Assembly: GCF_021134715.1 (NCBI RefSeq)
Contig: NC_060024.1
Location: forward strand, 7,006,001-7,070,000
From: Daphnia pulex
Taxonomy: Eukaryota > Arthropoda > Branchiopoda > Diplostraca > Daphniidae
Direction: 5' to 3'
Length of the DNA stretch: 64,000 nucleotides
Positions 33,047 through 54,054 of this stretch are shown here, one piece after another; positions within the stretch are counted from its first letter, which is position 1; each line of letters opens with the position of its first letter. The notes beneath the pieces are model-generated. The model ran no database searches and was not told where the DNA came from. It saw only the letters and a list, made by a program, of their open reading frames with translations. The translations under genes and the position numbers were made by a program.

Positions 33047-33050
33047 TTGG

Positions 33051-33332
33051 TGTAATGTTAATTCACAACGTATGGCAAAGCCATTGACAATTTCTCACAC
33101 TTGTTGATGCGTTTACCATACGCATCTTCTTAATTGCACAGGCATGGCTACTATCAGACAAGCCATCGCCCGTCGCCCCGTTTATAAACCGAACATTCGA
33201 TCTATTTGGGGTCTCGCTTGTACGGTCACTTGCTTGTTGCTTGTAATCGTGTTACAATTGTGTTGGTTGTTCCGACTCTCAATATACCTGTAACCGCACC
33301 TCTCGTATTGACTCCTTTGACTCATCATCACA
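33051..33332 (+). repeat. 5' LTR
   Basis: 282 bases starting TGTAATGTTAATTCACAAC and ending CATCATCACA, near-identical to 48593-48878 apart from scattered substitutions and a 4-base length difference near AATTGC. A TATAAAC sequence (about 33182) could serve as the promoter core. The stretch right after it, TTGGTGAACGTGCC (from 33335), is the probable tRNA primer-binding site. Confidence 0.93.
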
Positions 33333-33530
33333 AATTGGTGAACGTGCCAGTTTTGGACTTCAAGACCTGCCGCGAGTCAACGAGAAGGAACATCGCCCAC
33401 AGCTGCCACACCGCCTAGGACCAGACGACCAGACAACCCACAACGAGATCATCTACATCGAGGAAGGAAACAGCAATTTTCTCAAAACTGTAAGTGAATG
33501 ACGAATCCTCAAACAAAAATTAGCGACACT

Positions 33531-34825
33531 AGCGGCGGATCGTGGGGATGGTGCTGCACTTCTCCTTTTGGATCTTAGCGCTGCGTTCGACACCATCGAT
33601 CATACCATCTTGATGCAGAGACTTTCATCTCACTGTGGAGTATCGGGAGTTGCCCTGGATTGGTTTTTCTCCTATCTTGACGGCCGTTCTCAGTCTGTTG
33701 TTGTGAATGCTCTGCCATCTGACAGCGTCACTCTAACTTCGGGGGTCCCACAGGGCTCTGTACTTGGCCCGCTTCTTTACCTCGCCTACGCGAATCCTCT
33801 TTCGTCGGTGCTAGAAGGTACCAATCTTAACAACGGTGGCCTAAACGTTCTGAAGATGGGTCAGTTCTCTGATGACACTCAGCTCCGGATTGGTTTTCGA
33901 CTCCGTCCCGCTCCATCTCAACAGCTATCGGCCCTAAGCATGATGGCAAGTTGTGCAGCGCGCTCGGAAACTTGGTTTACTGCAAATCGGGTGAAGCTTA
34001 ACGTGTGTAAGAGCGAACTTCTCTACACATCGACTCCGAACCGATCCAAGCTGATTGAAAATCTACCTCTTCAAGTTGGAGATGACTTGGTTCAACCTTC
34101 TCTAGTGGTGAAAAATCTTGGAGTGATCTTCGACAGCAATTTGACCATGATCCCGCATATCAACAGCGTGTGCAAGTCAGCATTTTTTCACATTCGCACA
34201 TTGGGAAAAATCAGGAAATACCTGTCACCACATGCGGCGAAAACCTTGGTTCAAGCTATGGTTCTATCCCGACTGGACTACGCCAACTCGCTGTTTGCTG
34301 GTCTTCCAAAGGAACAGATCCTGAGACTGTAGAGAGTCCAAAACGCTGCTGCCAGATTGATTGTCGGAGCGAGGAGGTTTGATCCTGTTTCCAACCATCT
34401 CAAAACCCTGCGTTGGCTGCCAGTCAACGAGCGCATCAGCTTTAAGTGTTTGGTTTTGGCCTTTAAGTGTCTGCATGGATATGCCCCTCCATATTTGTCA
34501 TCCCTGATTTAGCGTTACAACCCACCACGGACCCTCAGATCGTCGTTTTCTAGTGATCTAGCTGTCCCACCAGGAAAACCTGGGCTCTATGGCTCGCGCA
34601 CATTCTCAAGAATGGGTCCGAGGCTGTGGAACGACCTGCCGGATAACATCAAGAAAATGACGGAGCTGAAGAATTTTAAAACTCTGTTGAAATCCTATTT
34701 GTTCAGTAAATGTTATAAATGACCCAAATTGTACATATTTTCTTGAGTGACTCTACCTAAAGCGTCATTTGATCATGTAGTTGTAAAGTGCGCTATAGAA
34801 ATTGAATAAAATAAAAATAAATAAA
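33531..34825 (+). mobile_element. 5'-truncated CR1/L2-like LINE inserted in the leader
   Basis: Reverse transcriptase C-terminal part: LLLLDLSAAFDTIDHTILM, GVPQGSVLGPLLYLAYANPL, then FSDDTQLRIGF (active-site Asp pair, normally FADD, reads FSDD), and the thumb region HINSVCKSAFFHIRTLGKIR, VLSRLDYANSLFAGLP. The frame stops at 34330-34332 but LINE-like sequence continues (PRLWNDLP-type stretch near 34618) to a tail of GAATAAAATAAAAATAAATA. The 6-bp flanks GACACT at 33525-33530 and 34826-34831 look like its target duplication. It is inserted into the leader/5' gag of the LTR element. Confidence 0.87.
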
Positions 34826-34831
34826 GACACT

Positions 34832-37354
34832 TCGTTTACAGCTATAATGAGTCTTTCATTGATGAGATAGACATTGAAGAAGACGCGCACGTAAATTCCT
34901 TAGCTGATAGTGTACTGAAAGTTAGAAACAATTTTTTACCCATTGGTCAAATTTAATAAGTCTTTGTAAAAGTAATATAGATGAAACCTCAGATAAACGC
35001 TTAACACGAAGTAGTTATATTGCAAAAAGAAAGGAAGTCACAGGTCAAGTTTATCATTTTTTGAAACAGTATACATTTGAATTGCATAAGAAGGAGTTTC
35101 AAAGTTCAGTTTATCTTACCGGTGAGGCTAAAGAAAAAGTAGGAACATATTTCGTAGAATTAAAAGCAGACCCCAATAAATTTAACCCTTTTTGCTACAA
35201 AATGTTAGAGAGGCTCATAATCGAGAAGTAGATTTTTGGAATAAAGCATTTAAAATATTTAAGAGGGAACTTCTTTTCAAACAATTAGCACTAGATGAGT
35301 ATGCAAAGAATCTTTAACAAGACGTAGCGAACGAAACCAAAAAGACTGAAAAAGAAGTAGATAAAGTAAGAAGGGAATTTTCGAAGAGAGTAGCCGATTC
35401 TTACCTAGAGAACATCCGTTTAACAGCAGAAGTAGAAACATTAACCCGAAAAAATTTTAAACAAGCAACTTTAATAGCAGATTTTAATAATAGACCAAAA
35501 GAAAGTCAGACAAGCGATGAGAGTAAAACATTTTTGACAAAATACGAGACAGCTAAAACCGATCTAGAAAAAGCTAAGAGGGAAATCATAGGACAGAACG
35601 ACTGCATAAATGATTTAAGGGATTCCCTATCAAAATTAAAGGAAGACACTGAAGATAAAATAAAACAACTAAACCATAGCTACAATTTATTAGACGACGC
35701 ACACGAAGCTTTGAAGAACGCAAGTAAATTAACAGAAGACGACGTAACAACACTTACAAATAAAAACCAAGAACTATCTCAGAAGCTAGACACATTGCAA
35801 ATTAAAGCCAACTCCAAAGAAGCAAGCATAAAACTTTTGAAGACAACCAAACGAGACTTGTCCAATAAAATCTCTGACCTCCAACAAGAACTTAAAGCTA
35901 AAGATTTATACATTCAAAAACATTCGAAATCAACTCTAGTATCAGATACGCAATTCCATTCAAAGCCCACCCAAACAACTAATATTATAACCATGATATT
36001 AGGCAATGGAAACGAAGATGAACCAATAAATAAAAGTCATTTGCGTGAATTATATTCACAGGACGAACGGAAATCTATCCCCATTTTCAAAGGCAAAAGA
36101 GGAGAGCAGTTAGTTAATAATTGGTTAAAAGATGCGGAAAGAGTCGCACAAAGCGCAGGGTGGGAGAAGAAAGATAAAATGAAATACTTTTGAGATAGAC
36201 TAAGAGGAGATTCTGCGGATTGGCACAGTGATTATATGGAGAGAGCACAAGATGAGGAAGATTACGATGCATGGGAAAAAGCTTTAATAAAAAGATTTCT
36301 TACAGAAACAGAGCTAGAAAATTTAAGGAAACAATTAAACGAGCTTCGGCAGACCCCCGATCAAAGCACACACACTTTCGTTATTAGAATTAATCAGTTA
36401 TATGACATCATCCATGGAAAAGAAATTACATTAGGTGACAAAGCGACGAACAAAGCTAAGGCATTAGCAATATCTCTGAGTCAAATGAGAGGTGAAGTTA
36501 AACAAAAATTCTTTTAAAGGGTCTCTTGCCTAAAATATGGAAAGTAGTTTGGAGCCGCATGGACGTTGATAGTGCTTACGAAGACGTATGCGAAATCGCC
36601 TACGCCGCAGAAACTTTAGTTAATAGAATGGAACAGAATGAAGATATGAGTTTAAAGGCCACTATAGCAGGTATCTCTGCACACGATAACGAGCAACATA
36701 TAGAGATCTTACGGAAGAAAACAAAGATTGTTCATTTAGAGAAACAGTTAGCCGGTCTAACTATCGGAAAAAATGCTCCACAGGAAAACAACGAGATTGA
36801 TTTTCCCTCAATAGCAGTTGCCGACGCCTTTAACAGACGCAGATCACCTTCCAGCGATCGTAGACGGTCCAATTCGGAAAATCGGATCCGTTTTCAGCAC
36901 CCCCCAAGACGCCAACACAGCGCGGATAGAAATATTCCTCGATCTCGGTACGAATAATCAACACCGTAGATCACGTAGTTCTAGTGGTAACAGATATAAT
37001 GATACACTAGATAACCGTCCGAGAAGAGAGCCAACTTCACCACCACAAAATTATTCAAACAGTTCACAAGGACAATTTCAGCGTCCCCAAAATTTTAATC
37101 CTATGTTTAATCCTCGTCGTAGATTTCAGAATTTCAGTGAATTTCCCCAGCATTTTCGAAACCAAACGTTTCGTGCCCATCAGGTACCGCGCCAGAATAA
37201 CTTCGTTACCTCAGGTCCCCCTGGAGCTAGGCCACAGCATAACGCTTGGTATAACCTAGCCCAAGGATTTAGAAATAAGAGACATATAGAGTGTTATGCT
37301 TGTGGAAAGCGAGGCCACTACGCGCGAGAATGTCGCAGCGTGCCCCCGCCCTAG
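34832..37354 (+). pseudogene. gag of the LTR element, broken
   Basis: Pieces: 34855-34955 (SFIDEIDIEEDAHVN), a coiled-coil segment at 35534-36193 (YETAKTDLEKAKREIIGQ; LTNKNQELSQKLDTLQIKAN) ending in the capsid-like start SIPIFKGKRGEQLVNNWLKD, then 36194-36517 (DWHSDYMERAQDEEDYDAWE, EKALIKRFLTETELENLRKQ), typical of the retrotransposon gag domain, then 36526-36957 and, after a frame change near 36900, an Arg/Ser- and Asn/Gln-rich stretch with one zinc knuckle (CYACGKRGHYAREC, C-x2-C-x4-H-x4-C). Stops at 36193 and 36517 and one frameshift disable it. The long coiled coil before capsid is unusual. Confidence 0.85.
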
Positions 37355-37980
37355 TCACCGGAACAGCAGTAGGCTTATCGAGTAACAGTGTTGTAAATAT
37401 AAATATAACCGTAATATGTAGCGTAACGCAGTTAATGCGTATACCAGTGAGTTTTTCTGGTCTAAGGACACAAGGTTTAGTAGATACAGGTGCCTCAGCT
37501 AGTTTCCTTGCACATCGACTACTTATAAATGTACCCTATGGAAAAGTTAAAGAAATAAATACCGCCAACAATAGCACACAGCTTTTTAGAACAGTATCAG
37601 GAGAGTTAGTCAAACCACGAGAATGCTACGAGCTCAATATTAAACTAGCTCGTAGACACTCGTTTAAACATCCATTTTGTGTAATTTCAGAGTTAGAAGA
37701 AAAATGCATTTTAGGTTACGATTTTTTAGCAGCTAACGAAATAATAATAAACCCTAGCGAACGATCGATTAACTATAAACAAGACAATGAGTTAAAGAAA
37801 CTAATAATACCTCCATTACAGATCAACTCAATTAGCATAGTTGATCCACCCCAATTTAATTTAGAAGGCATACCAAAAACACACAAGGAAAATTTAAAGA
37901 ACCTTTTAATTTAAAATTTTTCGCTTTTTACTGAGAATTTAAATGAGCTAGGAAAAGCAAAATCAGTCAAGCACTTTATA
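37355..37980 (+). pseudogene. Retropepsin and start of reverse transcriptase
   Basis: Overlaps the end of gag in a different frame. Aspartic protease with the active site LVDTGASASFLAHRL and a flap/second motif ending CILGYDFLAANEIIIN. After NLEGIPKTHKENLKNLL a stop occurs at 37914, and pol-like sequence (NELGKAKSVKHFIRTT) runs into the 8-bp repeat CGTACGAC where another element has inserted. The rest of reverse transcriptase, including the catalytic YxDD region, is absent. Confidence 0.8.
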
Positions 37981-38329: not shown

Positions 38330-39362
38330 TGGACCGGGGTGATCCAATACCTGTGGTGGGTACTGTATACGGAAGAAGTTTTAAAGTATACACAGATCAC
38401 AAACCATTAGAATCATTAATGAAGAAAAAAGATCCACATGGCAGATTAGCTCGTTGGTCGTATGAAATGCAATCATACACATATGATAGTCCTACATCGT
38501 CCTGGCCAGAAAAATCAAAATAAAGATGCATTAAGTAGGACTCCATTACCATCAATAGGATCGATAATATTAGTAAAAGAAGAGAAGGTACAAAACGATA
38601 TAATATTAGCACAGAAAAATGATAATTTTTGTAAAGAAATAATACGGAGACTAGAAGAAAACAATAAGAAAGATTATAATGAATTCTGTTTCAATAATGA
38701 AGGTATTTTAATAACAAATGAAGGAAAAATAGTTGTGCCTAAAGAGAAAATTAATGAAATTTTAGAATTGAATCACGATCATATTTTAGCAGGGCATTTA
38801 GGAATAGCAAAGACGCTAGCGCGAGTAAAACGCCAATTCGTTTTGCCCGGACTAGGCAAAGACGTTCCTGAATATGTAAACAATTGTATTGCATGTGCAA
38901 AACGCAAAGCCTATGGGTCGACTAAAGCCCCACTTAAGCCATTGCCTTTAGTAGCAAACATTTGGGAACAAGTCGCGATGGACATAGTAGGGCCAGTTAC
39001 GGAAAGTAGTAAAGAAAACAAATACATTTCAGTTTTGTCTGATTACGCAAGTAGATATGTAATGACCATACCAATGAAAGACCAGAAAGCTCATACGATA
39101 GCAAAACATTTAGTGAAAAAAGTCTATACAAAATTCGGTCCTCCAGCACGAGTATTGACAGATAAAGGAACTCATTTTCTTTCAAAACTCATTTCAAAGT
39201 TATGCATTCTTTTTAAAATTAAGCAAATTAAAACTACAAGTTACCACCCGCAGACGGATGTACTAGTGGAAAGATTCAACAGGACTCTGTGCGATATGCT
39301 CGCATGTTATGTGAACGATGAACCAGAGTCATGGGATAAATATCTCGACTTTGCAACTTTCG
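38330..39362 (+). pseudogene. RNase H end and integrase of the LTR element
   Basis: RNase H tail YGRSFKVYTDHKPLESLM, DPHGRLARWSYEMQSYTY, then a frame shift near 38500 into HRPGQKNQNKDALSRTPLPS. Integrase: zinc motif H-x-H..C-x2-C (LNHDHILAGHLG, CIACAKRKAYG), catalytic Asp in VAMDIVGPV and VLTDKGTHFLS, and Glu in VLVERFNRTL. The frame runs 38462-39763, but after WDKYLDFATFA the usual integrase C-terminal part is missing and the sequence becomes hydrophobic and env-like, without a stop between. I infer a deletion joining integrase to env. Confidence 0.86.
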
Positions 39363-41154
39363 CTGCATGCTACTTGTCGATTGTCTTTACGCCTATTTTG
39401 ACGCTTAATATTCAAATTTGCGACTGCTCGAAACCAGTCACGAGAGGTCTGCTTGACCTTACAGACCCAGATTATTGTTTCAAAAATCACACTGATAAAG
39501 AGGACGAACAGAAAGTTATGAGCAAATTAGTAACCTATTATGTGGCTACTAAAATACAAACAGACCTGCGAGTAGAAGGACTCGTATGTTCGCAATGGAT
39601 AGAAACGAAAAAGATCACAGGATCATTTTGGGTAGGATCATATGACACGGAGCATTTTCACACGACGAAAGAAGTCAGTCCCCAAGAATGCTGGGAAATG
39701 AAATCGCTATTAAACTGCGCAGGGAATAAGAATATATTTAACGGCAAAACATATAGTTAGAAACAAAAACCAGTAGGTGAAGGAAAATGGATGTCAATAA
39801 AAGAATATTCTGTAGTGAATTGTTTAGCCCAAGACATTGAGATTAGACAAGAGTCCACTGATGGACCACTTCTATCACCACGCATAACGTATCGTTGAAA
39901 AACAAACACCTTATCGTTAACCACAATACTATTGTGTGGCGCATACCAAATGTTCCTACAGACGAGGTATAATGTCAAGAAAAGCAACAATTTAAAGGAA
40001 CAGGTAAAATATCTCTCATTAAAATAGACAGAAACCCAAGATTAAAACAGATAAAAACAGGTAAAATATTAGATACCGAAAAACAAGTTGAAATTTTATT
40101 CGGTCCCGAAAAAGTCAACCTTTGCGCCGGTATGTCGAATTCTTACAAAATAATTGGCATACCGGATACCCACATAGGTTTTGAAGACGAGATCGAAAAA
40201 TTCTTCTTAACAAACCCAACGTCAAAAACTCGACACACAAAACAGCTTCAACGAATTAACAACGAAAATAGCCACGTGTTTGCATGGGGACACCTTAATC
40301 CCCTTGCATCATTTCCACCCATCGAGTTCGACGAGAAATATGAAGACAAGAATTACGTGGTAACAACTTCTGACATCGAAAATCATCTGTTCCTGATGCC
40401 ACGGGTTCCAATCAACAAAACTACATGGAGCGAGTTAGGAATTTGGCCGAAAACGCAGCAGCTCTTCGAATTTTCCACGGACTTTTCAATTCGTTTTAGA
40501 ACAAATGGAACCAGTTACTGTCTAACAGTAAACAACCCAAACCACCTGCTCTTCAAAGATTGTTCGATTCCCCACTCGACTTGGATCTATGATGACTACC
40601 GAATGTACATCATGGAAACGCAATCGAAAGGATGCCTTACAGCAGTCAAGAACAACCCAGGTAGCACACAGAGCTGTTACAGACTCCTGTAACCGATCTG
40701 TTTCACATACTTGTGAAACAGATCCGTATCAGGCTTGTTACATCTCTATTTTACAGGAAATTTGTCTGGAATTGCTCTGTTTTACAGGATTTGGTAAAAG
40801 TTTGTTTCACAGATCAGGAACAGATCTGTTATTTTTCTGTAATACATACCCAGCTAGCATGTCTTTATTGGTAAAATATTTTTTTCCGACAATATTCTTC
40901 GATCGATGACCCACATATTGGTATAATATTATATTATTACTTTGTTGCGACAAGGTGGCTGTTAAATTTTTTTGTTATTTTCCCAATAAATGACTATTAT
41001 CAAAGATGAATAAATTAATATAATTTTTTTTTATTTTCCCAATAACGGATCATTAAATAAGGAATACATCGTTTTCTATGAAAAAGCTGTAGTCTTTTAC
41101 ATTTACCACATGTTCAAAATCCTAAATGATTGGATAGCTGCTGCCTTTTAAGAC

Positions 41155-41218
41155 AAGAGTGGGTTTGAACCATCGTCCTTTGTGTCACCAAACCAACACT
41201 ATAACCACTCATCAGAAA
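41155..41218 (-). other. tRNA-like sequence with pol III boxes (a)
   Basis: On the minus strand GAGTGGTTATAGTGTTGG (A-box-like) precedes GATGGTTCAAACCCACTC, whose GGTTCAAACCC fits a B box. The spacing is that of a tRNA. Acceptor stem pairing is poor, so not a functional tRNA. Confidence 0.65.
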
Positions 41219-41814
41219 CGGTGATGATAATAATGTCCCGATGTGACCACATGTATAGTGCATACTTACACATTGTCATGGTTATAGCCCAGCGTGAGCA
41301 TAATCGATTTAATTTACATCAGTGTAGGAATTTATGATTATTGAAACTATTTGTTTCATAAGTCATTTGTTTGCTGAAACTGCTGAACGTTTAAGATAAA
41401 TTATATCACGTTAGCGTGAAGGTAGAGTTTTAAATTCGAAGTACGTAAGTTAGTTGTTCGAGACTTGTGCAAGATTTGGATTTTAAGACAATTGGATTGT
41501 TCAGTTAGGCAATTGTATGCAGAACTAACGAATTGAATACGATATAAAACATTTAGGATTTTGAACGCATGTTAAATGTAAAAGACTATAGCTTTTTCAT
41601 AAAAAAAGGATTTATTATTTTTTTAATGGTCCGTTATTGGGAAAATAACAAAAAGGTAATATTGATTGATTCATCTTTCATAATAGTCATTCATTTGGAA
41701 AAGAACAAAACAATTTAACAGCCACCTTGACGCAGCAAAGTAATAATCTAATATTATACCAATATGTGGGTTATCGACCGAAGAATATTCTCGGAAAACA
41801 ATATTTTACCATTA

Positions 41815-41955
41815 CGGGACTAGACTTATCCCTTTTTTGGCCGTAGGGACATCCTTGGCGAGATCCTCTGCATCTGTCTATTGCCTGTCGGGACAAACCC
41901 CTATAGGGAATCCCCTCTTAACCCATGTTTACTTGGCTTCTAGAAGTTAAAAACT
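41815..41955 (-). repeat. Solo LINE 3' tail (copy of 30340-30480)
   Basis: The reverse complement matches the 3' end of the LINE at 27690-30480: GGATTCCCTATAGGG, TTTGTCCCGA, AGGCAATAGA, GATGTCCCTACGGCC. Only the tail is present, as in extreme 5' truncation, or as a SINE using a LINE tail. It interrupts the right arm of TIR element 2. Confidence 0.82.
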
Positions 41956-41992
41956 TGTATTGCCTCAAGTTGAAAAACATTTGTAATACCGC

Positions 41993-42060
41993 TGTTGGTG
42001 TAGTGGTTATAGCATTGGATTGGTGACTTAAGGTGTGATGGTTCAAACCCACTCAAGACC
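41993..42060 (+). other. tRNA-like sequence with pol III boxes (b)
   Basis: GGTGTAGTGGTTATAGCATT (A-box-like) and GATGGTTCAAACCCACTC (B box) at tRNA spacing, followed by AAGACC. Same design as copy (a) on the opposite arm, so the two may be an inverted pair belonging to TIR element 2. Confidence 0.65.
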
Positions 42061-42549
42061 AAAAATAAGAACTTGTCTAATAACAAGTTGAAGATGATTA
42101 AATATACCATGCTGGACTATATAACCATAAACACAACAATCAGATTTCCGTCAAAATTTTAAAAGTAGTAAAACTGTTATTTCACCAATAAAAGTAAAAT
42201 AAGTAAAACAAGTTGAAAAAATATTGTGAGCCAACAAATTTGGGTGCAAAAATATATTGGAAAAATATTTAAAAAAATTATTTTACCAACATCTTAATTG
42301 TAGGAATATAATATTTTAGCAATATTTGGGAAATATACTCTGCTAGCTGGGTAAATCTGGTTTTAACTGTACTACAGACCTGTTACAGATCTGTTTTTTA
42401 CTTGAGAAAATTGTTTCTGATTTAGCTCTGTTTCCCATGTTTGTCACTTGTCTGTTTTTACTCTGTAGAAAGACATTCTGTTTTTCTTCTGTATTACAGG
42501 TATGTCACATGCATGTTTTTACTCTGTATTACCGAGTACAATATGTTTC

Positions 42550-42875
42550 TGTTCTGTGTCTGTACTCCAGGTCTGGTACGGGTCTGTATTTTCCTTGTAA
42601 GACATAAGTCAGTAATCATCTGTTCTGAGTCTGTACCCCAGGTATGGTACAGGTCTGTATTTTCTATGTAAAACTGAGTTCAATGATTATCTGTTCTGTG
42701 TGTGTACCCCAGGTATGGTACAGGTCTGTATTTTCTATGTAAAACTTAGTTCAGTGATTATCTGTTCTGTGTTTGTGCCCCAGGTATGTACGGAACTGTA
42801 TTTCCCTTGTAACACCTATAAGTCAGTAATCATCTTATCTGTGTCTGTATCCCTATTATGGTACATGTTTGGATT
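42550..42875. repeat. Four tandem units of about 80 bp in TIR element 1
   Basis: Units carry ATCTGTTCTGTGTNTGTACC, CCAGGTATGGTACAGGTCTG, TATTTTCTATGTAAAACTGA and GTTCAGTGATT. The first and last units are more diverged. They give short Val/Cys/Tyr-rich chance frames only. Confidence 0.8.
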
Positions 42876-43225
42876 CCCAATGGAAAACTGAATTAAACGT
42901 TTTCTTATATGTGTAATATCACTGCAATACCATGCAGTAAGAAGTTACACTCTAATAGTCCATGCAGGGCTAATGGCCATGAGTTTAGTTCAGAAGGCCT
43001 AATTTATCCACCGGACGGAGAAGTATCACCTAAATAGGTATAATAAAGACTTGTAATTGGTGTGGGGCCAATCTTGGTCTTGTTACTATCGGAAGAGACC
43101 AGTGGTAGTCATATGTAGCAATGAGTTTCGTGAGAGAGACATGTCAGACTGTTTGTTGAATGTACAAGTGTAAAACTGTGAAATATAGATCATTATGAAA
43201 TATATCTATACATAAATATCGAATT

Positions 43226-43287
43226 ATGGTGTAGTGAATAGCGTACTGGTTTGTAAACTCAGAGATTGATGGTGCGATACCAGAGAG
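43226..43287 (+). other. tRNA-like sequence with pol III boxes (c)
   Basis: TATGGTGTAGTGAATAGCGT (A-box-like) and GATGGTGCGATACCAG (one difference from a B box) at tRNA spacing, in the right part of TIR element 1. Weaker than the other three. Confidence 0.5.
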
Positions 43288-45481
43288 AGGCAATTATTTT
43301 TTTTCTTGAAAATCTGTTTTTGGTCTGTAAATGGTGATCCCGTTTTACGGATCTGTCACAGACCTGCATGACAGTCTGTAAAAGTGTTTCACTCCAAACA
43401 ATTTACAGACTCTCAAAAACAGATCTGTAACAGACCTGAAACAAGTCTGTGTACTACCTGGGCAGGTGTCACTTGAACCTTGTGAAATGGAGCCCCACTC
43501 AATCAAGCAGATGTGGAGATTTGATCAACGTAATACGAACTACAACCTACGTCAAGCATATCCAAACATCACGTAAAAGAATGGGAATTCGTCCACGAAG
43601 AATTCAGAAGCAACCCTGCAGAAAACCTATTAAATATAGACCATATATTTAATTGGGGACAACTTATGAACAAAAACAAAAATGGAAAAACGCCGATGTG
43701 TATGAACAATATACACGGAATAATAAACATCTCTATGGAGCCATGTCAATCACCAGGAGACCCGATGCAGTTTCCAGATCAGCTATTTGAATACGACATC
43801 GACTATACCATCAGGAAGTTCGATACCAATCATTGCTTAAGAATAAACGAAAAGAACACAGTTCTCGAGCAATGCAACCCGGAAAGCATGAGATGGGCCA
43901 ACGAGATAACTGGACAATTAATGGATGTGAACTCAATCAAATGCATTGAAATTCACAAAGGAAAGTTAAGATTAGGATTATGCAACGACGACCAGAAACC
44001 CAGACATCAGAAATGGAAATTCGAAGCATACAGCCCTAATCTAATAAATTCCGAAGAGCATCGCAGCTTAATACCTTCTAGGATTCTCGAGTGGCATAAA
44101 AACTTTTCCATTCATGATATGCCATTCCCAACGATACCGCCAATCTTCCAGAAACGAAATAACATGAGCCTCATTGAAGATAAAACGATACCAGAGACAA
44201 CGCCAGTTCCAGACACAACAACAGAGACCAACAAAGAAGAAACAACGCCAGTTCCAGATACAACAACAGAGACCAACAAAGAAGAGTACCCTGAAATATT
44301 GGAGATAAAAGCCGTAGAAACACCGATCATAAATGAAACTAAAGTTGCAGCAGCGTCACATATCAAACAACAAAATCTAGGGAATAATCAACAGTAAAAT
44401 ATAACAAAAGTTTTCGCAGGCGAAATAGCAAGGCCTCACGCAGGAATCAATAATAATTCAAGCAACCCGCCAACGATGAACCCAACAAGACCTATAAAGA
44501 TCCTCCAGTAACTGCACCGACAAAACCTGCAACAAAATTGACATCAACAATAACAACCACCACAACGACCACAACAACAACGACATCGAAAACAACGTCA
44601 ACTTCAAAACCAATACCCTTAACCGAACCGACAAAACCACCCGTAATTCCCACGTAATTCTACACAAAGCAACACTCCACCCCAAACAAAAACCACAAGT
44701 CCCAACCAAAAAGTTACAAAACAACCCTTACCCTTACCTCATCCCACCAGAACCATCATACCTTACCAAAACGATTCCAAAACTATCCCTATACCAACAA
44801 AAGCTACATTACCTTACCTGAACGACTCAACTGACAAAAGCAAAAACACCACACAAAATAAACCAACAACAGCAAACAAAGAAGAAATCAGCGAGATCAT
44901 CAAGTCCATCATCCAATCCTTCCACGAGCAATATAAGCAGAACATCGAGATTCAACACGAAAATGAGCTGGCAAGAGAGATACGACAAATATACTGCCAG
45001 GTGTCTGTATTAAGAAGATTGCAAGCCATGACACTGTCTCAAACAAATGGAATTCTAGCCGCAGCAGCATTGGAACTACCAATTTGTTCACGACTTCAAG
45101 GACTCGGATTATCTCTACTTCTACAGGAATGCGAGAAGAAACAGGTTACAGTCGGAGCAATAGAAACGAAATGTTGATTCCAGCCATAGACGGTTTACAA
45201 AAATAACAACTATACAATTTGAACAGATGGATGGTTAATCCACCCATTTTCCAATTGTTTTTGGAAAACAAACCTTGTCAATCTAAACGGAAAAACATTT
45301 CACTGGGAACACAATACAACCCACACCGATTGGACAGTGCAAACGCCGAATATACACACACCAAATTTAAATCTTGTATCGCAGTTTGAAGAGCTATCCC
45401 TTAACGATTTTAACTACTCTTTAAAAGGACATCCAGCTCATTCAGTAACAAACTTAGAAAGACTCAACGTTTTAAACGAAT

Positions 45482-46244
45482 TACCCTAGTGGCACTTTTC
45501 CTCCCTTGGACGTCCATGGCACGTCTGTACATCCCAGCCATATCTACATCCAAATTGAAAATTTCTGATGGAGACAAGACAGCCATAGGATGTCTAGCAA
45601 TGATAGCCTAAAGATGTTCTTTTTTTGTCCTTGTTACCTCCAGGAGACATCCGTTAGGTCATCGTTTTTATTATTATTTTTTAATTATTATTTTATTTTA
45701 TTTTATTTTTTTTATTTTTATTTTTTTTATTTTTTTTCCCTCATCACCGAACATCATTATCAACGCCCAGCGTGTCACAGCGAGTCTCGTTAACACACAG
45801 AGGTCGCAAACACTAAGCAACCTATAGGTTTTCATATAATAAATATATATCAGTCTATGGTCTAGTGGTTAAAGTACTCGACTGGTAATCTTAAGGACGA
45901 TGGTTCAAACCCAGAGTCAGTCAAAAGTATTTCATCAAAAATAAAATTAGATACGTATGATGAAAGACTATGGTGATGATGTGAGTACATCTCTAATAGT
46001 GTACCATGTGTATAAGCATATGTGTACATGAAAATCTTTAATCTTTGCGTGATTATCGTAATATGATATCCATAGGACATCCTATGGATGACCACAGGAT
46101 GCACTTTAGATAAGCCACAGATAACCTCGAGACTTGGCATGGAACGGTAATTAAGATGTCCAAAACACATCCAAAGTACATCATTTGGGCTCAAAACTAA
46201 GACCATGGGTGAATATCCACAGGCCATCGTGTGCCACTAGGGTA
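45482..46244. mobile_element. TIR element 3 (CCCTAGTGGCAC ends) inside env
   Basis: The element occupies 45484-46242, flanked by TA (45482-45483; 46243-46244). Ends CCCTAGTGGCAC and complement GTGCCACTAGGG. It interrupts the env frame between LNVLNELP and the membrane-anchor segment. No transposase; contains a T-rich tract (45665-45740), repeated GACATCC/GGATGTC motifs and a tRNA-like sequence at 45853-45919. Confidence 0.87.
45853..45919 (+). other. tRNA-like sequence with pol III boxes (d)
   Basis: CTATGGTCTAGTGGTTAAAG (A box), CGACTGGTAATCTTAAGG (anticodon-arm region) and GATGGTTCAAACCCAGAG (B box). The best preserved of the four; still no clean acceptor stem or CCA context. Confidence 0.65.
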
Positions 46245-46481
46245 ATAGGTAGGATAGAGGAAACGCATGACAATTCGCTAGCTGGAATGATAATGTCAGA
46301 GAAACAGGATACGAAAATTGGAGACATGTCTTCTTGGACAGATTACCTAAAAATTATCGTCTTTACTACAATAGGATTTATAATGTTTATCCTAATTACG
46401 TATATTTTTGCACGAGTCAACCCTATACCAGCCATGATTGATTCGTTTCAACAACGCCGAAATCGCCGTACAGCAGTATAA

Positions 46482-46767: not shown

Positions 46768-48198
46768 ATGAACCAAGAGGATTTGGCAACGACCCCATCT
46801 GAACGTCAACGGATTTGGACCTTTAGCACTACCCGCATGAGTAGGAGAAATGCTTTCCCTCCCAACCGGAAACATGGAATATAAAAAATCACCCCGAAGA
46901 TTCACGAATTAGTTTTGATGGACAGCACACCGAGTATAAGTATTGGCTAACGCGACACCCAGAGGACATTGAGAACACCTATCGACAAAAAACACCTCTT
47001 CTGGTAGCTATCAAACATAATTCGTATAAATGTTTCAAGATTCTCCTAGAACACGATGATGCAGACGTCGAAAAAAGTAACTCGAAGAATGAAACGGCGC
47101 TAGTGACCGCGGTACGATTACACCGAATTAACATGATCGAAGACTTGATCTACAAGGGCGCCACAATCTACAGCGGAGATCGATTGGCTAGAACCATCAC
47201 AGAAATACTCATCTCACGGGATGACGTAAATAGTATACGGTTCTTCCATATTTACAAGAAAAACCTGTTAGAACACGATCTGGTTAATCAGGAATTTCCT
47301 TTGACTTTGGCAATAAGCCATCAAGCTAGGAATTGTATCGATTACATCCTCAGCAAAAACCCAAAAGTCGAGTCATTTCTAATCAACAGAAAATACAGCT
47401 GCCCCATTTCAGTGGCTATAAGGAGAAACGACATCGACACCATAAGGGCTCTAGTAGAGCTAGACAGATTTCAGCACATTGTCAACACAAAAGTGCATAA
47501 ATCTCTCTCTTATATCCATTTAGCAGAGGAAAAAAACCGACATGAAATTGCCGACATTCTACTATACAACGGAGCACAAGTAAATCTACAGAACAATAAC
47601 GGAAACACGCCCGCGGATTTCGTAAACGATATAGCTACGTTAAGGGTATTTATTTCTCACGGAGCCCGCCTGGAACTTGGAAATCGGAACCACGAAACTC
47701 CAATCATGGCTGCGAAAAAAGATGGCGGTAATGCCGTCTACCATTATTTACGCTTCTACAATCATGAAAATAGGAAAAAGATCTATAATACACTCGACAC
47801 TAGATTTTATTACAATAATTCTGACAGAGTCGAGAAAGTGATCGCAGCCATGAACATAATGTCGGACGAGACCTCCCAAAAAGGAAACTACGATGATATG
47901 CCAGACTTAGAAGAAGGACCACCAATTAAGCACATCCCTATTCCGCCACGAAAGGTCAACGAGAATATCTACCCTGCAAGAACCGAAAAATCACGCCTAG
48001 ACGACGGTGCACCAAGTCTCAAATTACGGCATTTTAGGCAAAGCGAAATTGAAACTACCCCCACCACCTGGATACCGACGGGACTATTCTTTTATAACAA
48101 GGGATTCAGACAGCGACATCGAGAAAAACATTATTGCCGACAACAAAATAACGCCTTCCGAGGATGAAGATGGTGTTCATCTTAATGAATTACAATAA
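46768..48198 (+). pseudogene. Ankyrin-repeat ORF of the LTR element
   Basis: The main open frame is 46845-48167 (352+ residues). Ankyrin-type repeats are visible as TPLLVAIKHNSYKCFKILLE, ETALVTAVRLHRINMIEDLI, PLTLAISHQARNCIDYILS, ISVAIRRNDIDTIRALVEL, HEIADILLYNGAQVN, and GNTPADFVNDIATLRVFISH with ETPIMAAKKDGG. A likely ATG at 46768 (MNQEDLATTPSERQ) is in another frame, so a shift near 46870 is needed to reach the repeats; splicing to an upstream exon is another possibility. Near 48060 a second shift leads into DYSFITRDSDSDIEKNIIAD and an acidic end at 48198. No membrane segment. It sits between env and the 3' LTR, where a retroelement accessory gene would be. Function unknown; ankyrins bind proteins. 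Confidence 0.75.
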
Positions 48199-48259
48199 AG
48201 AAATAAAAAAAATAGAGAAAAACATAATAATCACCAGTAGCATTGACCATTTGGCTTTA

Positions 48260-48480
48260 TGCAGATTTTGCCATTCTTGTCTGTTTAGTGATTATTGCTA
48301 TTCTTGCCTGTTTAGTGATTTTGCCATTCTTGTCTGTTTAGTGATTTTTGCCATTCTTGCCTGTTTAGTGATTTCGCCATTCTTTTCTGTTTAGTGATTT
48401 TTGCCATTCTTGCCTGTTTAGTGATTTTTGCCATTCTTGCCTGTTTAGTGATTTAGACCATTCTTGCCTGTTCAGCGATC
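48260..48480 (+). repeat. Minisatellite of about 29 bp upstream of the 3' LTR
   Basis: About seven to eight units of GATTTTTGCCATTCTTGCCT followed by GTTTAGT, with small length differences. Lies after the ankyrin ORF and before the polypurine tract. Confidence 0.87.
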
Positions 48481-48579
48481 TTATATGTAGTAATGTTGTT
48501 CTTTTAATCTTACATGTAGTGATGTTGTGCTTTGCCAATGTTTAAAGATCACGCCCCTTCCCAGTTTGGAACATCTCCA

Positions 48580-48592
48580 AGCGGGGGAGGAG
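48580..48592 (+). promoter_or_regulatory. Polypurine tract
   Basis: AGCGGGGGAGGAG immediately precedes the 3' LTR start TGTAATG, the position of the plus-strand primer. Confidence 0.75.
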
Positions 48593-48878
48593 TGTAATGT
48601 TTATTCACAACATATCGCAAAGCCATTGACAAGTTCTCACACTTGTTGATGCGTTTACCATACGCATCTTCTCAATTGCTTTAACAGGCATGGCTACCAT
48701 CAGACAAGCCATCGCCCGTCACCCCGTATATAAACCGAACATTCGATTCATTTGGGGTCTCGCTTGTACGGTCACTTGCTTGTTGCTTGTAATCGTGTTA
48801 CAGTTGTCTTGGTTGTTCCGACTCTCAATACACCTTTAACCGCATCTCTCGTATTGACTTCTTTGACTCATCATCACA
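48593..48878 (+). repeat. 3' LTR
   Basis: 286 bases, TGTAATGTTTATTCACAAC to CATCATCACA, near-identical to the 5' LTR. TTGG follows (TSD). Confidence 0.93.
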
Positions 48879-48882
48879 TTGG

Positions 48883-49330
48883 TATGATGTTGCTCTAAAA
48901 AAGAGAAAAGAAGAGAGTCCATTTTTAGTCAGTCGTATTTGGGCTCTTCGAAAAACTTGTCCGGAGAACTACCTTGGCTGACTTGGAGCGCGTCTTTGTG
49001 TGATCCTTTTCTTATTGTTGAACCTAACCGTTTTGTGTTGTGTTAAATCTTTGACTAGTTCTTTCCCCTTTGGTCCCGTGGGTGACAAGGTGCGGCGTGT
49101 GAGCGTTCACCCGCGGGACTGGTACTGGGAGTTTGGCTTATTTAACTAATTAAGCAACCTTCAAGCCTCAGCACTGTTGGTGACCAAATCATCTTGTATG
49201 AGTAAGAAGACCGCCAAGCAGGGCCATCGTTCCGGTGTTCTCTGTATTCCCATTGCCCTCTTCTGCCAAGTTTTTATAAAATTCATAAAAAATATATTTC
49301 ACGCAAAATGAACGTTTTTACAAACAAATT
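48883..49330. other. Possible remnant of another LTR element
   Basis: Sequence ending CTTCAAGCCTCAGCACTG is followed by TTGGTGACCAAATCATCTTG, like an LTR end plus primer-binding site, and then ATGAGTAAGAAGACCGCCAA, a possible gag start. No second LTR or gag domain is seen, so this is weak. Confidence 0.25.
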
Positions 49331-50520
49331 AAGCAATTCTAAAACCAACTTGAAATAAGCAATTCTTTGGCTTTAATCGCCAGTACTTAAAAATAAATAT
49401 TTCCAAGTTAAAGCAAACAAAGAAAATCAAATCGTGAAAGTAAAATGGCCATGCCGCTGACCAGTCAATTTTAAAATATTGTACTAATTTTAAAATGTGA
49501 GAATACTTGCTGCATGAAAACTGAACAAACATTATGAGGCCAAAGCAAGCTGTCAATATGGCAGCGGTGCCGAAACAGACAAATACAGTGCTGAAACTGA
49601 AAAAAGTGGTGCCGAACTCGACGGAACTGCTGGGCCGAAAAAAAGTGCCGAAACTGGTGGGAACCTCGCAAACAGGAGAGGGTACGCGTCAGTCACTTTC
49701 TCTATGGAACCCCTTTCCATATAAATGGTTCTACCATGCCATGACTGTTGTCAGTGTAGTGGCCTTCATTCATAAGGAAAAGGGGGTCACACAATTTTTT
49801 TTTTAAATCCACCTGAACTTTAAAGTAAAATTAAGAAATAATTCACGGCACACGGAGAAGGGCTATAGAAAATTATGATGTTGACAGATCCAGCAGAGGC
49901 TTCTCTACACCCTGGCCTTGCCCTTACTCCCAAGTCGACTTTGTCCCTGATGTCACGAGCAGAACTCTCTCTTGTAGCTGTACGGGTACTGACACAGTCG
50001 TTAATACACCCAAGTAAAGAACCTAACAGATGTAAAGTCGAAAAATTATTGCATATACCCGAAAATACGTGTGTGTGAACTGTGAAGCACGTAAAGTCGT
50101 AAACAGTAGGGAAACGTGAAAATGTCGATCACCTTCCACTGGCGGACGACCTGACCCCTACCGGCAAGCAGGAACATCGATTCAGACGATTCTTCTCTGG
50201 CTTATGGAATTGAGTGTCGTCAGGGGTTCGTTAAGTGACAAAGCGAAAAAGCACGGCGTTATGCCCAATAAGCATTGTCGAATGTCATGTGACCATCCCT
50301 TTTCACCAATGAGGGGTTATAAGGCGCGCGCAAAATCGTGCTACCTTTCACGTCAGTGCCTTGAATGCCTGCGATGAAAGGGGAAGAAAGGGTTATTTTT
50401 TCAAATTAAAAAAAATTAAAAAAATGGCAACTCCACCTCCCATGTGTGATGAAGGTGCCATACACTGCCGTAGGCCTACTCTAACAAAGGAGAATGAAAG
50501 TCTTTCCCACTTTTTTGTTA
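49331..50520. other. Unassigned stretch with one dispersed repeat
   Basis: 49555-49670 repeats 31885-32010 in inverted orientation, and contains short GTGCCGAAACTG units. The remainder (49671-50520) has no recognised gene; short frames there look like chance. Confidence 0.5.
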
Positions 50521-50522
50521 GT

Positions 50523-50775
50523 CTTACACCAGAGCTATAGACTCCTGGTCGCTTCACGGCTGTGTTGGCTTCCCTATCCCGGTTTCAGGGTAAAAGTAAG
50601 CCGATTTGGAAACTTTAAAAAGCGCCTCTAGTGAGTGTGTCAGCTACTACGCTCAGCTACTTTTGTGAGCCTAGATGGCTCTTTTTAACGTTTCCACTTC
50701 ACTATTCTGACAGGCTCCGCCCTAAAATCTCTTAAAATCGGCTTACTTTTACCCTTATAGAGTAGTCCATGGACA
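50523..50775. repeat. Dispersed repeat, copy 2 (pair with 9425), with inverted ends
   Basis: 50535-50655 matches 9442-9553. In this copy AGGGTAAAAGTAAGCCGATT (50587) is mirrored by AATCGGCTTACTTTTACCCT (about 50736), so it can fold. It is followed by ATAGAGTAGTCCATGG (50759), a 16-mer found again at 54685. Confidence 0.72.
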
Positions 50776-50821
50776 ACGACTTGGTAACTAGAACTAGAAC
50801 TTAAGTTGGTCGCTAGGGAAT

Positions 50822-53800
50822 GGAAGCCCAAAACCGCCACTTTTTCAATATAATAATGATTTTCAAAATATCATTACATAAAACAGAAAAGAATATATAA
50901 AAAACAAATTCAATATAAAACTGAAAAAAGTATTATATAAAAACCAAAAAGAGTGTAATATAAAAAACAAAAAGTTGATATAAAAAGCAAAAAAAGTCAA
51001 TATAAAACCCAAAAAAAAGTCAATATATATAAAAAATATTCAATATATATAAAAAAAATTCAATATAAAAACTGAAAATGTATTATATTAAAACCAAAAA
51101 GAATATAATATAAAAAAACAAAAAGTTGATATAAAAAGCAAAAAAAAGTCAATATAAAACCCAAAAAAAGTTCAATATATAATCCAAAAAAGGTCTATAT
51201 AAAAACAGCAGCCACCTAGCGATCAAAAGAATCACTTCATGCCACATCTCCACCCCCTTAATAACCAGTTTGAATCCAGTAGTACAAACGGGGATTCTTG
51301 CGCGATAAACGCGTATTTGAGCATTTATTTAATCACATAATTAAAAACGAGCAATCGCTTAACTAACGCTACTTAATGCGCGTCGCTCTAAATTATTATT
51401 TTTTAAAATGTAATTCGAAGTAAAACGACTGTGGCTGACTGCGGCGACTGGTCAGACGAGTAACGCGAGCCCGTCCGTTTTTTCCAGCGGTTATCGCTGG
51501 TCCGTTTGCTATTTTAGCACTGCCGCCCGTCGACTGTTTTCGGTGGCTCATTATAAGCGAAAAATAATCCATTCAAATGTTTTGCGCTAAGCGCGCGTTG
51601 CGCTAGCGATTGGTTTGCAATAAACTTGCGCGCGATGCGCTATATTTAGCGCAATTCATTGCATCTCATTTTTACGAAACGCGCAAGCGCTTCGTTAATT
51701 AAAGTAAATGGTTCCGGAAAAGAAAACCATTGCGCGACTGGACGAGTAGCGCGTGCCCGTCCATTATTTCAGCGCTTATCACGAGTCAGTTTACTTGTCG
51801 TAGCGCTTATCGTCGCCCGTCCGCTGTTTAATAAGGCGACTCGCTGTGCACGGGTTATGCGCGTTTTGTAAATAATACGCATCTTGCGCGCGACACGCTA
51901 AATTTTGAGCATTTTATTTAATCTTTAATTAAAAAACGCACAAGCGCTTAAATAATTTGAGCGCTTATTTCTGGTTCTTCAAGCTGTGTTAGCGCTATCG
52001 CCCGTCCGCTGTTTTCAGCGGCTCATTATGCGAAAAATAATTAAAACACATTTTCATTCTAGATCTAGCGCTAAATAAACGCGCATGGCGCTAGTGATCT
52101 ATTTGCGATTTACTTGCGCGCGATGCGCTAAATTATTTAGCGCAATTCATTCAATCGTAGCATTTTATGAAACGCGTAAGCGTTTCGTTAATTTAACTAA
52201 ATGGTTCAGGAAAAGAAAACCATTGCGTGACTGGCTTCATTATTTCAGCGCTTATCACGAGTAAATTCGCTTGTCGTAGCGCTTATCGTCGTCCGTCCGC
52301 TGTTTAAGGCGGCTCGCTGCGCAAAACAATGTCAAAGTTCTAGCGCTGCGAAATCATAAACTCGCTTATGATAAACTTAAGATTAACTTGCGCTCAATGC
52401 GCTAAATAGTCGGATTAAGTTCATCACATAAATTACGAAGCGCGCATATAATTTGCTAAAATAAATATTTAGCGATAGATCTAGCGCAAAATATATTGAC
52501 TTCATTATTTTTCGCGCTAAATATTTATTTTTGCTAGTTATTTGCGTTTGTAAATTATTTAATGAATTTAAATGCGCTTAATTTGACGCATTGCCTGCAA
52601 GTAAATCTTTAGTTAATTATTAGCGCAATGGGCGCTTAAGAAAGAAAGCGCTACATCTAGCGCGAACTATTTAAAATGTTTGGCCCAGCGAGCCGTGTAA
52701 AACTTTGGACGGACGACGATTAGCGCTAATAAGGTAGCGAACGGACTCGCGACAAACGCTAATATGATGTACGGGCGCACGCTTCTCGTCCCGTCTCGTC
52801 CATTTGCGGTAATCGTTTACCCTTTCGCAACATTTTATTAAAATTAACGAAACGCTTGCGCGTTTCCTAAATAATGCAATGAAATAAATTGCCCTAAATA
52901 TAGCGAATCACGCGCAAGTTTATCGCAAACACATAGCTAGTCCCACGATCGCTTCGATAGCGCTAGATCTAGCGCGAAACATTTCAATTAATTATTTTTC
53001 ACGCAATGATCCGCCGAAAACAGCGGAAGGAGCAGCGGAAATAGCGGACGGGCTCGCATTACTCGTCTAACCAGTCAGCGCAGTGGTTTCCCTTTGCATT
53101 CAATACAAACAAATAATTTAGAGCCATTCGCATTAAGTAGCGTTATTTAAGCGCTTTCGCTTTTTTAAATATAGGATTAAATAATACGCTCAAATTGAGC
53201 ACATATCGCGCAATAAGCGTTAAACATTTATTTTATCGCTTGCGTGTTTCGTAAGCTATAAACGGACTCGAGACAAGCGCTAAAATTATCAACGGGTGTG
53301 CGCAACTTGTCCAGTCGCCGCAATCGTTTTACCTGTCGCATTTATTACTTTTATTAACGAAGCGCTTGGGCGTTTCGTAAATAATACAATGAAATAAATT
53401 GCGCTAAATATATATTTAGCGCATCGCGCGCAAGTTTATCGCAAACCAATTGCTAGCGCAACGCGCGCTTATTGCAAATCATTTGAATGGCTTATTAGCT
53501 TATAATGAGCCGCCGAAAACAGCGAACGGGCGACAGCGCTAAAATAGCAAACGGACCAGCGATAAGCGCTTTTAAAAAATCGGACGGGCTCACGTTACTC
53601 GTCTGACCAGTCGCCGCAGTCAGCCGCAGTCGTTTTACTTCGCTTGACATTTAAAAAAATAAAAATTTAGAGCGACGCGCATTAGGTAGCGTTATTTAAG
53701 CGCTTGCTCGTTTTTTTATTTTGTGATTAAATGCCCGTTTGTACTACTGGATTCAAACTGGCTATAAAGGGGGTGGAGATGTGGCATGAAGTAATTATTT

Positions 53801-54054
53801 TGACCGCTAGGTGGCTGCCGTTTTTATATTGAACTTTTTTGGGATTATATATTGAACTTTTTGGGGGTTTTATATTGACTTTTTTTTGCTTTTTATATCA
53901 ACTTTTTGTTTTTTATATTACACTCTTCTTGGTTTTTATATAATACTTTTTTCAGTTTTATATTGAATTTGTTTTTTATATATTCTTTTCTGTTTTATAT
54001 AATGATATTTTGAAAATCATTATTATATTGAAAAAGTGGCGGTTTTGGGCTTCC
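50822..54054. repeat. 3.2 kb near-palindromic foldback element
   Basis: The left end GGAAGCCCAAAACCGCCACT mirrors the right end AGTGGCGGTTTTGGGCTTCC. Behind them lie A-rich arms with short tandem units (AATATAAAACCCAAAAAAAG, GTTGATATAAAAAGC) and their complements at 53820-54010. Further in, GTCCGTTTGCTATTTTAGC, CGACTGGTCAGACGAGTAAC and TTTGAATCCAGTAGTACAAA are mirrored at 53500-53770, so arms of well over 1 kb face each other; the centre is near 52.4-52.6 kb. GCGCTA/TAGCGC 6-mers saturate the inner part, and blocks such as CAGCGCTTATCACGAGT recur within one arm. No coding frame of note. No clear target duplication. Confidence 0.87.

Follow-up and report, generated by a model that had tools for sequence, protein, structure and literature searches.

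An ankyrin-repeat gene behind the envelope gene of Ty3/Gypsy-type elements in Daphnia pulex

Results

The element in the window

The analyzed stretch of Daphnia pulex contig NC_060024.1 (positions 7,006,001 to 7,070,000, forward strand, 64,000 nucleotides; hereafter the window) holds a decayed Ty3/Gypsy-type element of 15.8 kb. It extends from 33051, the start of the 5' long terminal repeat (LTR), to 48878, the end of the 3' LTR, and an ankyrin-repeat gene, here called ANK, follows its envelope gene. The features below were located in the element, in window coordinates; E values are those of the Pfam families named.

33051..33332, +, 5' LTR, right end approximate, paired with the 3' LTR; target site duplication (TSD) TTGG at 33047-33050
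35318..37351, +, gag remains spread over several frames: coiled-coil region, Retrotrans_gag (E 6.3e-8), zf-CCHC zinc knuckle (E 3.7e-6)
37279..37911, +, protease part of pol: Asp_protease_2 (E 3.9e-5)
38450..39757, +, integrase part of pol and, joined to it, the beginning of the envelope frame: Integrase_H2C2 (E 1.4e-19), rve (E 9.3e-11)
39973..46478, +, envelope remains in pieces with inserted repeats between them: Ricin_B_lectin (E 2.8e-7 and 6.7e-10)
39973-40689, +, envelope lectin domain 1, a Ricin_B_lectin match
43534-44394, +, envelope lectin domain 2, a Ricin_B_lectin match
46155-46478, +, envelope-like transmembrane end, from the reading-frame translation
46769..48195, +, ANK gene, broken in this copy; core frame 46845-48164
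48251..48482 (about), +, minisatellite of ~27-base units between ANK and the 3' LTR, from repeat analysis
48580..48592, +, purine-rich run before the 3' LTR, a candidate polypurine tract found at the same position in four sister copies
48593..48878, +, 3' LTR; TSD TTGG at 48879-48882

The ANK core frame is open from stop to stop over 440 residues, and its Pfam matches, Ank_2 (E 9.3e-22) and Ank (E 2.2e-13), both exceed the curated cut-offs. The ANK match begins 140 bases after the last envelope match. The first-pass annotation, made from the letters of this DNA, had claimed an ankyrin frame of more than 350 residues with an acidic tail, placed after env and before a minisatellite, polypurine tract and LTR within a TSD-flanked element. 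The frame was recovered at more than that length, every landmark was found in the order described, and the proposed Pfam check was significant for both families. The acidic tail is encoded as well, but the start and the tail sit in frames other than the core in the window copy: residues 1-57 (with one stop) and 424-479 were obtained as separate matches, and the gene is broken.

The remainder of the element is also degraded. Its LTRs (33050-33339 and 48592-48883) are 92.5% identical, and the 4-bp TSD, TTGG, was read from both flanks. The reverse transcriptase (RT) is largely gone, with no match there in the RT protein search, and ~1.5 kb carrying open reading frames (ORFs) 5 and 6, located between ANK and the 3' LTR in sister copies, is missing. 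The envelope start was compared by eye with that of the copy on contig C9; the envelope protein search gave matches at 50496-52628 of the contig copy. The window copy is old and broken.

Sister copies and families

The 1431-base ANK stretch of the window was searched against the genome (133 Mb in 13 contigs, the window lying on contig C8). It returned the window and seven further places at 91-94% identity, four of which span the full query, one covers 1-1188, and two are fragments. LTR pairs enclose the full copies of this family (family 1), which span 14.1 kb from end to end on C9, C2, C5, and C8:766k, and 13.5 kb on C8:5768k. Both LTRs were compared in four young copies: they are identical on C9 (281/281) and on C5 and C8:766k (283/283 each), and those on C2 differ by one base of length. 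The TSDs of four sister copies are 4 bp each (GAAG, CTAA, CAAC, and TAAT). Identical LTRs and TSDs in young ANK-bearing copies imply that ANK moved with recently active elements. On C8, ANK fragments flank the LTRs of one element on both sides (5766000-5783100; L006-L008), together with another frame starting with GRGR, which has the look of LTR-LTR exchange or nested insertions.

The C9 copy is open in gag (two pieces), pol (1191 aa), envelope (1244 aa), ANK (479 aa), ORF5 (189 aa), and ORF6 (208 aa), the last two counted from ATG. Its gag carries the CCHC motif, and the pol frame is ordered protease, RT, RNaseH, integrase. By the LTRs, TSD, gag CCHC, and pol domain order, the element is a Ty3/Gypsy-type LTR retroelement (metavirus).

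A search of the genome with the ANK protein gave 41 matches, including 18 good loci (E of 1e-10 or lower, with the pieces of each copy joined by hand). At 11 of these 18, the same strand carries the envelope 101-166 bases upstream, the stop-filled relic at C9:4674k included; the remaining seven are fragments or belong to rearranged clusters on C12 and C8. ANK is 54% identical to family 1 in family 2 (C12:2816k) and 45-47% in family 3 (C10:6766k, C7:4836k, C10:11516k), according to the search rows. The corresponding figures are 68-70% for the envelope and 80-84% for RT. In the pairwise comparison of the three families, ANK identity is 46-53%. ORF5 follows ANK in all three. Stop-free ANK frames were found in family 1 on C9, C2, and C5 (479 aa), in family 2 on C12 (a 562-aa frame), and in family 3 on C10 and C7 (499-aa frames). 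Matches at 42 bits or below are a mixture: some are ANK frames of more distant elements (L059-L062), others ordinary ankyrin genes, so named by eye (L065, L066). The C12 cluster (2571000-2824000) combines family-2-like, g3-like, and other element pieces, with ORF5 and ANK frames duplicated.

The first-pass annotation had proposed to look for the same ORF at the same place in other copies, and took relatives lacking it, together with a match to a host gene, as the signs of a one-off insertion. The opposite was found. The ORF occupies this place in six family-1 copies including that of the window, to which two fragments are added, in three sister families, and in more distant envelope-bearing relatives; this recurrence after the envelope across families supports the proposal of an accessory gene belonging to an LTR element with an envelope.

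Distant relatives

For elements found by RT and envelope matches, the stretches after the envelope were read. ANK frames were found there in further groups: g2 (L059, L060; broken in L064), g3 (L061, L062, L100; broken in L063 and L087), and g4 (L088, L101). We placed these in an RT tree of 21 rows, picked for spread from 111 RT matches. A clade of 15 rows (support 88/90) has an ANK frame after the envelope in 14 rows, or in seven of eight lineages when near-identical rows are counted once. Outside it, no ankyrin match was seen downstream of the envelope in the three rows read (L090-L092) of an outer group of four.

Among 5.8 billion proteins, the ANK query gave 70 matches. P0001-P0018 are 39-99% identical and come from D. 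pulex and environmental sources; some of these stand for more than 50 member sequences, and relatives of g3 ANK at 37-50% identity are present in environmental sets. The predicted ANK family extends beyond this assembly, and the envelope-then-ANK order is known here from D. pulex. One ANK copy is represented in public data by the gene model P0002, which matches the element gene at 98% and is named 'alpha-latroinsectotoxin-Lt1a-like', a name that appears to rest on the ankyrin repeats alone. A scan of a viral contig collection with the ANK protein yielded one pattern-matching stretch and no relative. A relationship to Wolbachia phage, suggested by a single weak match to a phage record (23.5% identity over 62%), was dropped as generic ankyrin similarity.

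Selection and rate of change

Rates were compared pairwise between families 1, 2, and 3 by Nei-Gojobori counts of nonsynonymous (dN) and synonymous (dS) change. Between families, dN was 0.11-0.13 for RT, 0.14-0.22 for the C part of the envelope, 0.41-0.50 for ANK, and 0.59-0.83 for ORF5, with 0.59-0.87 synonymous differences per site, at or near saturation. ANK thus changes about four times faster than RT and twice as fast as the envelope part. Within family 2, an ANK pair gave a ratio of 0.15 (dS 0.58, dN 0.088). The limited protein change despite near-saturated synonymous sites across three diverged families indicates purifying selection. By these codon comparisons, the predicted ANK protein is kept by purifying selection over long spans, yet is fast-changing. 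The mean majority fraction is 0.74 in its core and 0.51 in its tail, where single positions of the basic stretch and the acidic end are kept.

Predicted proteins and expression signals

An AlphaFold model of ANK was built with 18 sequences (mean predicted local distance difference test score, pLDDT, 65.8; predicted template modeling score, pTM, 0.57). Residues ~39-339 are well formed in it, mostly at high confidence, with nine helix pairs by our own count; residues 1-38 and 340-479 are disordered. The tail contains a conserved basic stretch, a proline-rich stretch, and an acidic end. Repeats above the curated score and the predicted solenoid fold mark ANK as an ankyrin repeat protein, and Foldseek against the PDB returned ordinary ankyrin solenoids as the nearest folds. 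Against viral models, the best 50 rows comprised poxvirus, giant virus, chlorella virus, and a few other entries, many of them unnamed; there was no retroelement protein among the named ones. In the g1, g2, and g3 proteins scanned with an E limit of 1, the ANK tail gave neither an F-box or PRANC match nor any other extra Pfam domain. A SOCS-box in the basic, proline-rich part of the tail, an idea formed by eye, was dropped, as it had no Pfam support.

The C9 envelope frame (L013:4954-8685) follows pol and has a hydrophobic start at residue 4 and a further segment near 1149, that is, the errantivirus-type arrangement of an envelope after pol with a signal and a transmembrane segment. Pfam recognized only Ricin_B_lectin, with two ricin-B-type lectin (beta-trefoil) matches in the outer part. 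To our knowledge, such domains are an unusual make-up for a retroelement envelope. Those relatives of the protein that have a named source are from Daphnia, D. magna and D. sinensis among them.

ORF5 (L014:546-1112) and ORF6 (L014:1347-1970) matched no Pfam family. A hydropathy scan (19-residue windows above 1.6) gave two membrane segments for the envelope and none for ANK, ORF5, or ORF6. Relatives of ORF6 lie between pol and envelope in the elements at C8:718609 and C8:7630685, and at the 3' end in family 1; a frame starting with GRGR follows ANK in g4 elements. Given these shifting positions, the two genes seem shuffled.

The C9 copy has GTAAGT a few bases upstream of the gag start and, immediately upstream of the envelope start, a good pyrimidine-rich, acceptor-like site (6/300 random windows were as good).

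Other observations in the window

Within the envelope remains, three short repeats (41996-42051, 43227-43282, 45858-45913), 66-75% identical, have a look of derivation from transfer RNA (tRNA) genes; ARAGORN called no tRNA in the element, these repeats included. Within the gag region, 34000-34329 contains a frame that by eye resembles the final part of a reverse transcriptase from a non-LTR retrotransposon, probably a later insertion. Just to the right of the element, 50822-54054 consists of tandem and inverted repeats with units of ~490-550 bases.

Discussion

Genome comparison shows a predicted, dedicated ANK gene as a standing part of a D. pulex lineage of envelope-bearing Ty3/Gypsy-type elements, directly after the envelope. 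We explain it as an accessory gene under selection whose product would be a host-directed adaptor, and give this explanation as a whole a probability of roughly 70%. That ANK is a selected accessory gene is very probable by itself. A putative host-directed adaptor as its job, read from sequence features, is close to an even bet. From the predicted structure, the product is most likely a soluble intracellular adaptor that binds a host protein. Its approximately nine ankyrin repeats would form the binding surface for the partner, and the disordered tail, with its basic and proline-rich stretches and acidic end, may join this partner to another component. The speed at which ANK changes points to a host protein as the target. 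Candidates are factors of defence, ubiquitin, or traffic, any of which the element might block or re-route; such interference would let it replicate or spread between cells. ANK would probably be made from a short spliced message, as the envelope probably is, and we infer that it ranks as an accessory gene as the term is used for complex retroviruses.

Several results weigh against this explanation. The support of the RT clade (88/90) is under the strong mark of the tool, and one of its members, C5:3043k, has after the envelope a 321-aa frame with no Pfam match and no ankyrin repeats. Two close RT relatives lacked both an ANK and an envelope match in their vicinity: C10:9077831 (83% in RT), where an ORF5 piece remains and the RT of another element lies between, and C2:11587528 (84%, partial). 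Within families, the ratios were noisy: C9 versus C8b gave 0.81 and C9 versus C8c 0.54, both including shifted stretches, and the family-3 ANK pair gave 0.70 on ten changes. The envelope and ORF5 also outpace RT, so speed alone is no proof of a host target. Finally, the acceptor-like sites before the ANK start did not exceed the random level in family 1 (88/300) or family 3 (85/300); that of family 2 was no more than fair (27/300), and one g3 element had a good one (4/300). Splicing to ANK is therefore a guess.

The gene may go back to one ancient acquisition or to several captures. In the second case, unrelated ankyrin genes may have been taken up about three times at the same spot (g1; g3; g2 with g4), or an older one replaced. 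This account concerns origin, not function, and we regard it as somewhat less probable than its negation. Blast scores of g1 against g3 and g2 (30-59 bits) are no higher than those against ordinary ankyrin proteins (28-86), g2 against g4 stands out (98-124), and the flanking protein parts are unlike each other by eye. Against this, the gene holds the same place and strand in 14 of the 15 rows of one RT clade, and a fast gene would drop to such similarity anyway; homology among g1, g3, and g2/g4 is not decidable from pairwise scores.

As to function, ANK could instead be an assembly or virion protein that binds the element's Gag, its Env tail, or ORF5/ORF6 and aids assembly, budding, or traffic. 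Its neighbors do move along with it, ORF5 following ANK in families 1, 2, and 3. PPxY, a known class of budding motif, occurs in ANK or neighboring small proteins of several families (L014 ORF6, L043 ORF5, L059 ANK, the L101 post-ANK frame) and was absent from the two gag pieces tested. However, each occurrence is expected in 5-15% of shuffles, a chance-like rate that makes the motif a weak lead, and the motif shifts between proteins; moreover, the rate of change of ANK is about double that of the envelope part. We consider this role unlikely.

A special case of the adaptor explanation, interference with Rel/NF-kB through mimicry of I-kappa-B, is less likely still. Polydnavirus ankyrin proteins are regarded as such mimics, and ANK, too, has its repeats ahead of an acidic tail; acidic tails are common, though, and no I-kappa-B entry occurred among the best 60 solved chains of the profile search or the best 50 fold matches. 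A one-off insertion of a host gene, or a functionless passenger, could account for the broken window copy and for the host-protein name of P0002, but is hardly credible, since ANK recurs after the envelope at 11 of 18 loci and in several families, with limited protein change against near-saturated synonymous change.

Returning to the selected accessory gene, a broader and tentative picture, which we hold with less than even confidence, is that of a Daphnia lineage of complex invertebrate retroviruses. It would carry gag-pol-env and three fast-changing accessory genes (ANK, ORF5, ORF6) reshuffled between families, with ANK taken up or replaced more than once at one spot, as in a host arms race. 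Host-disarming accessory genes are a mark of complex vertebrate retroviruses. If our explanation is true, a crustacean Ty3/Gypsy lineage with its own conserved accessory set would be an independent example, and one in a laboratory animal. The host protein targeted by an LTR element, and the reason for retaining the envelope, would become testable questions. A warning also follows for the Daphnia annotation, where some ankyrin genes, such as P0002, are element genes.

Comparison with known systems

Complex retroviruses (lentiviruses and spumaviruses) have small additional genes downstream of env, which evolve more rapidly than pol. Their accessory proteins are unrelated to ANK, and the Daphnia elements are of Ty3/Gypsy type, with a crustacean as host. 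Poxvirus and giant-virus ankyrin proteins are likewise virus-encoded ankyrin solenoids, similar to ANK in predicted fold. Unlike the poxvirus-type ANK/F-box adaptors, which belong to DNA viruses, the Daphnia protein gave no Pfam match to a C-terminal F-box/PRANC, and the kinship is no closer than the shared repeat.

Our search of open-licence papers gave no report of an ankyrin gene after the envelope in a Gypsy-type element. For Daphnia pulex, Rho et al. (2010) described 56 gypsy families, with one large subgroup far from known gypsy lineages (PMC2996953). The words 'ankyrin', 'envelope', and 'accessory' are absent from the main text of that paper, and the longest gypsy element given there has 12,862 bases, versus 14.1 kb for family 1.

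The giant Burro elements of planarians, as presented in PMC6431247, are Gypsy-like LTR elements with envelope homology and ankyrin repeats that possibly meddle with host systems. There, the ankyrin motifs lie within a 4,873-aa polyprotein with other host-like domains; in Daphnia, ANK is a separate gene after the envelope of a 14-kb element, and it is kept across a clade. The retrovirus-like LTR elements of bdelloid rotifers have exchangeable extra 3' genes, some common to lineages; the text of PMC5408684 lists captured ORF3s of env-like, GDSL esterase, DEDDy exonuclease, and coiled-coil or transmembrane type, and the word 'ankyrin' was not found in it. The Daphnia elements differ in that they keep the envelope, with ANK additional. 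Among the systems compared here, Burro is the nearest precedent for an ankyrin-bearing element of this type, and the ORF3 capture of bdelloids is the nearest parallel for its modular 3' genes.
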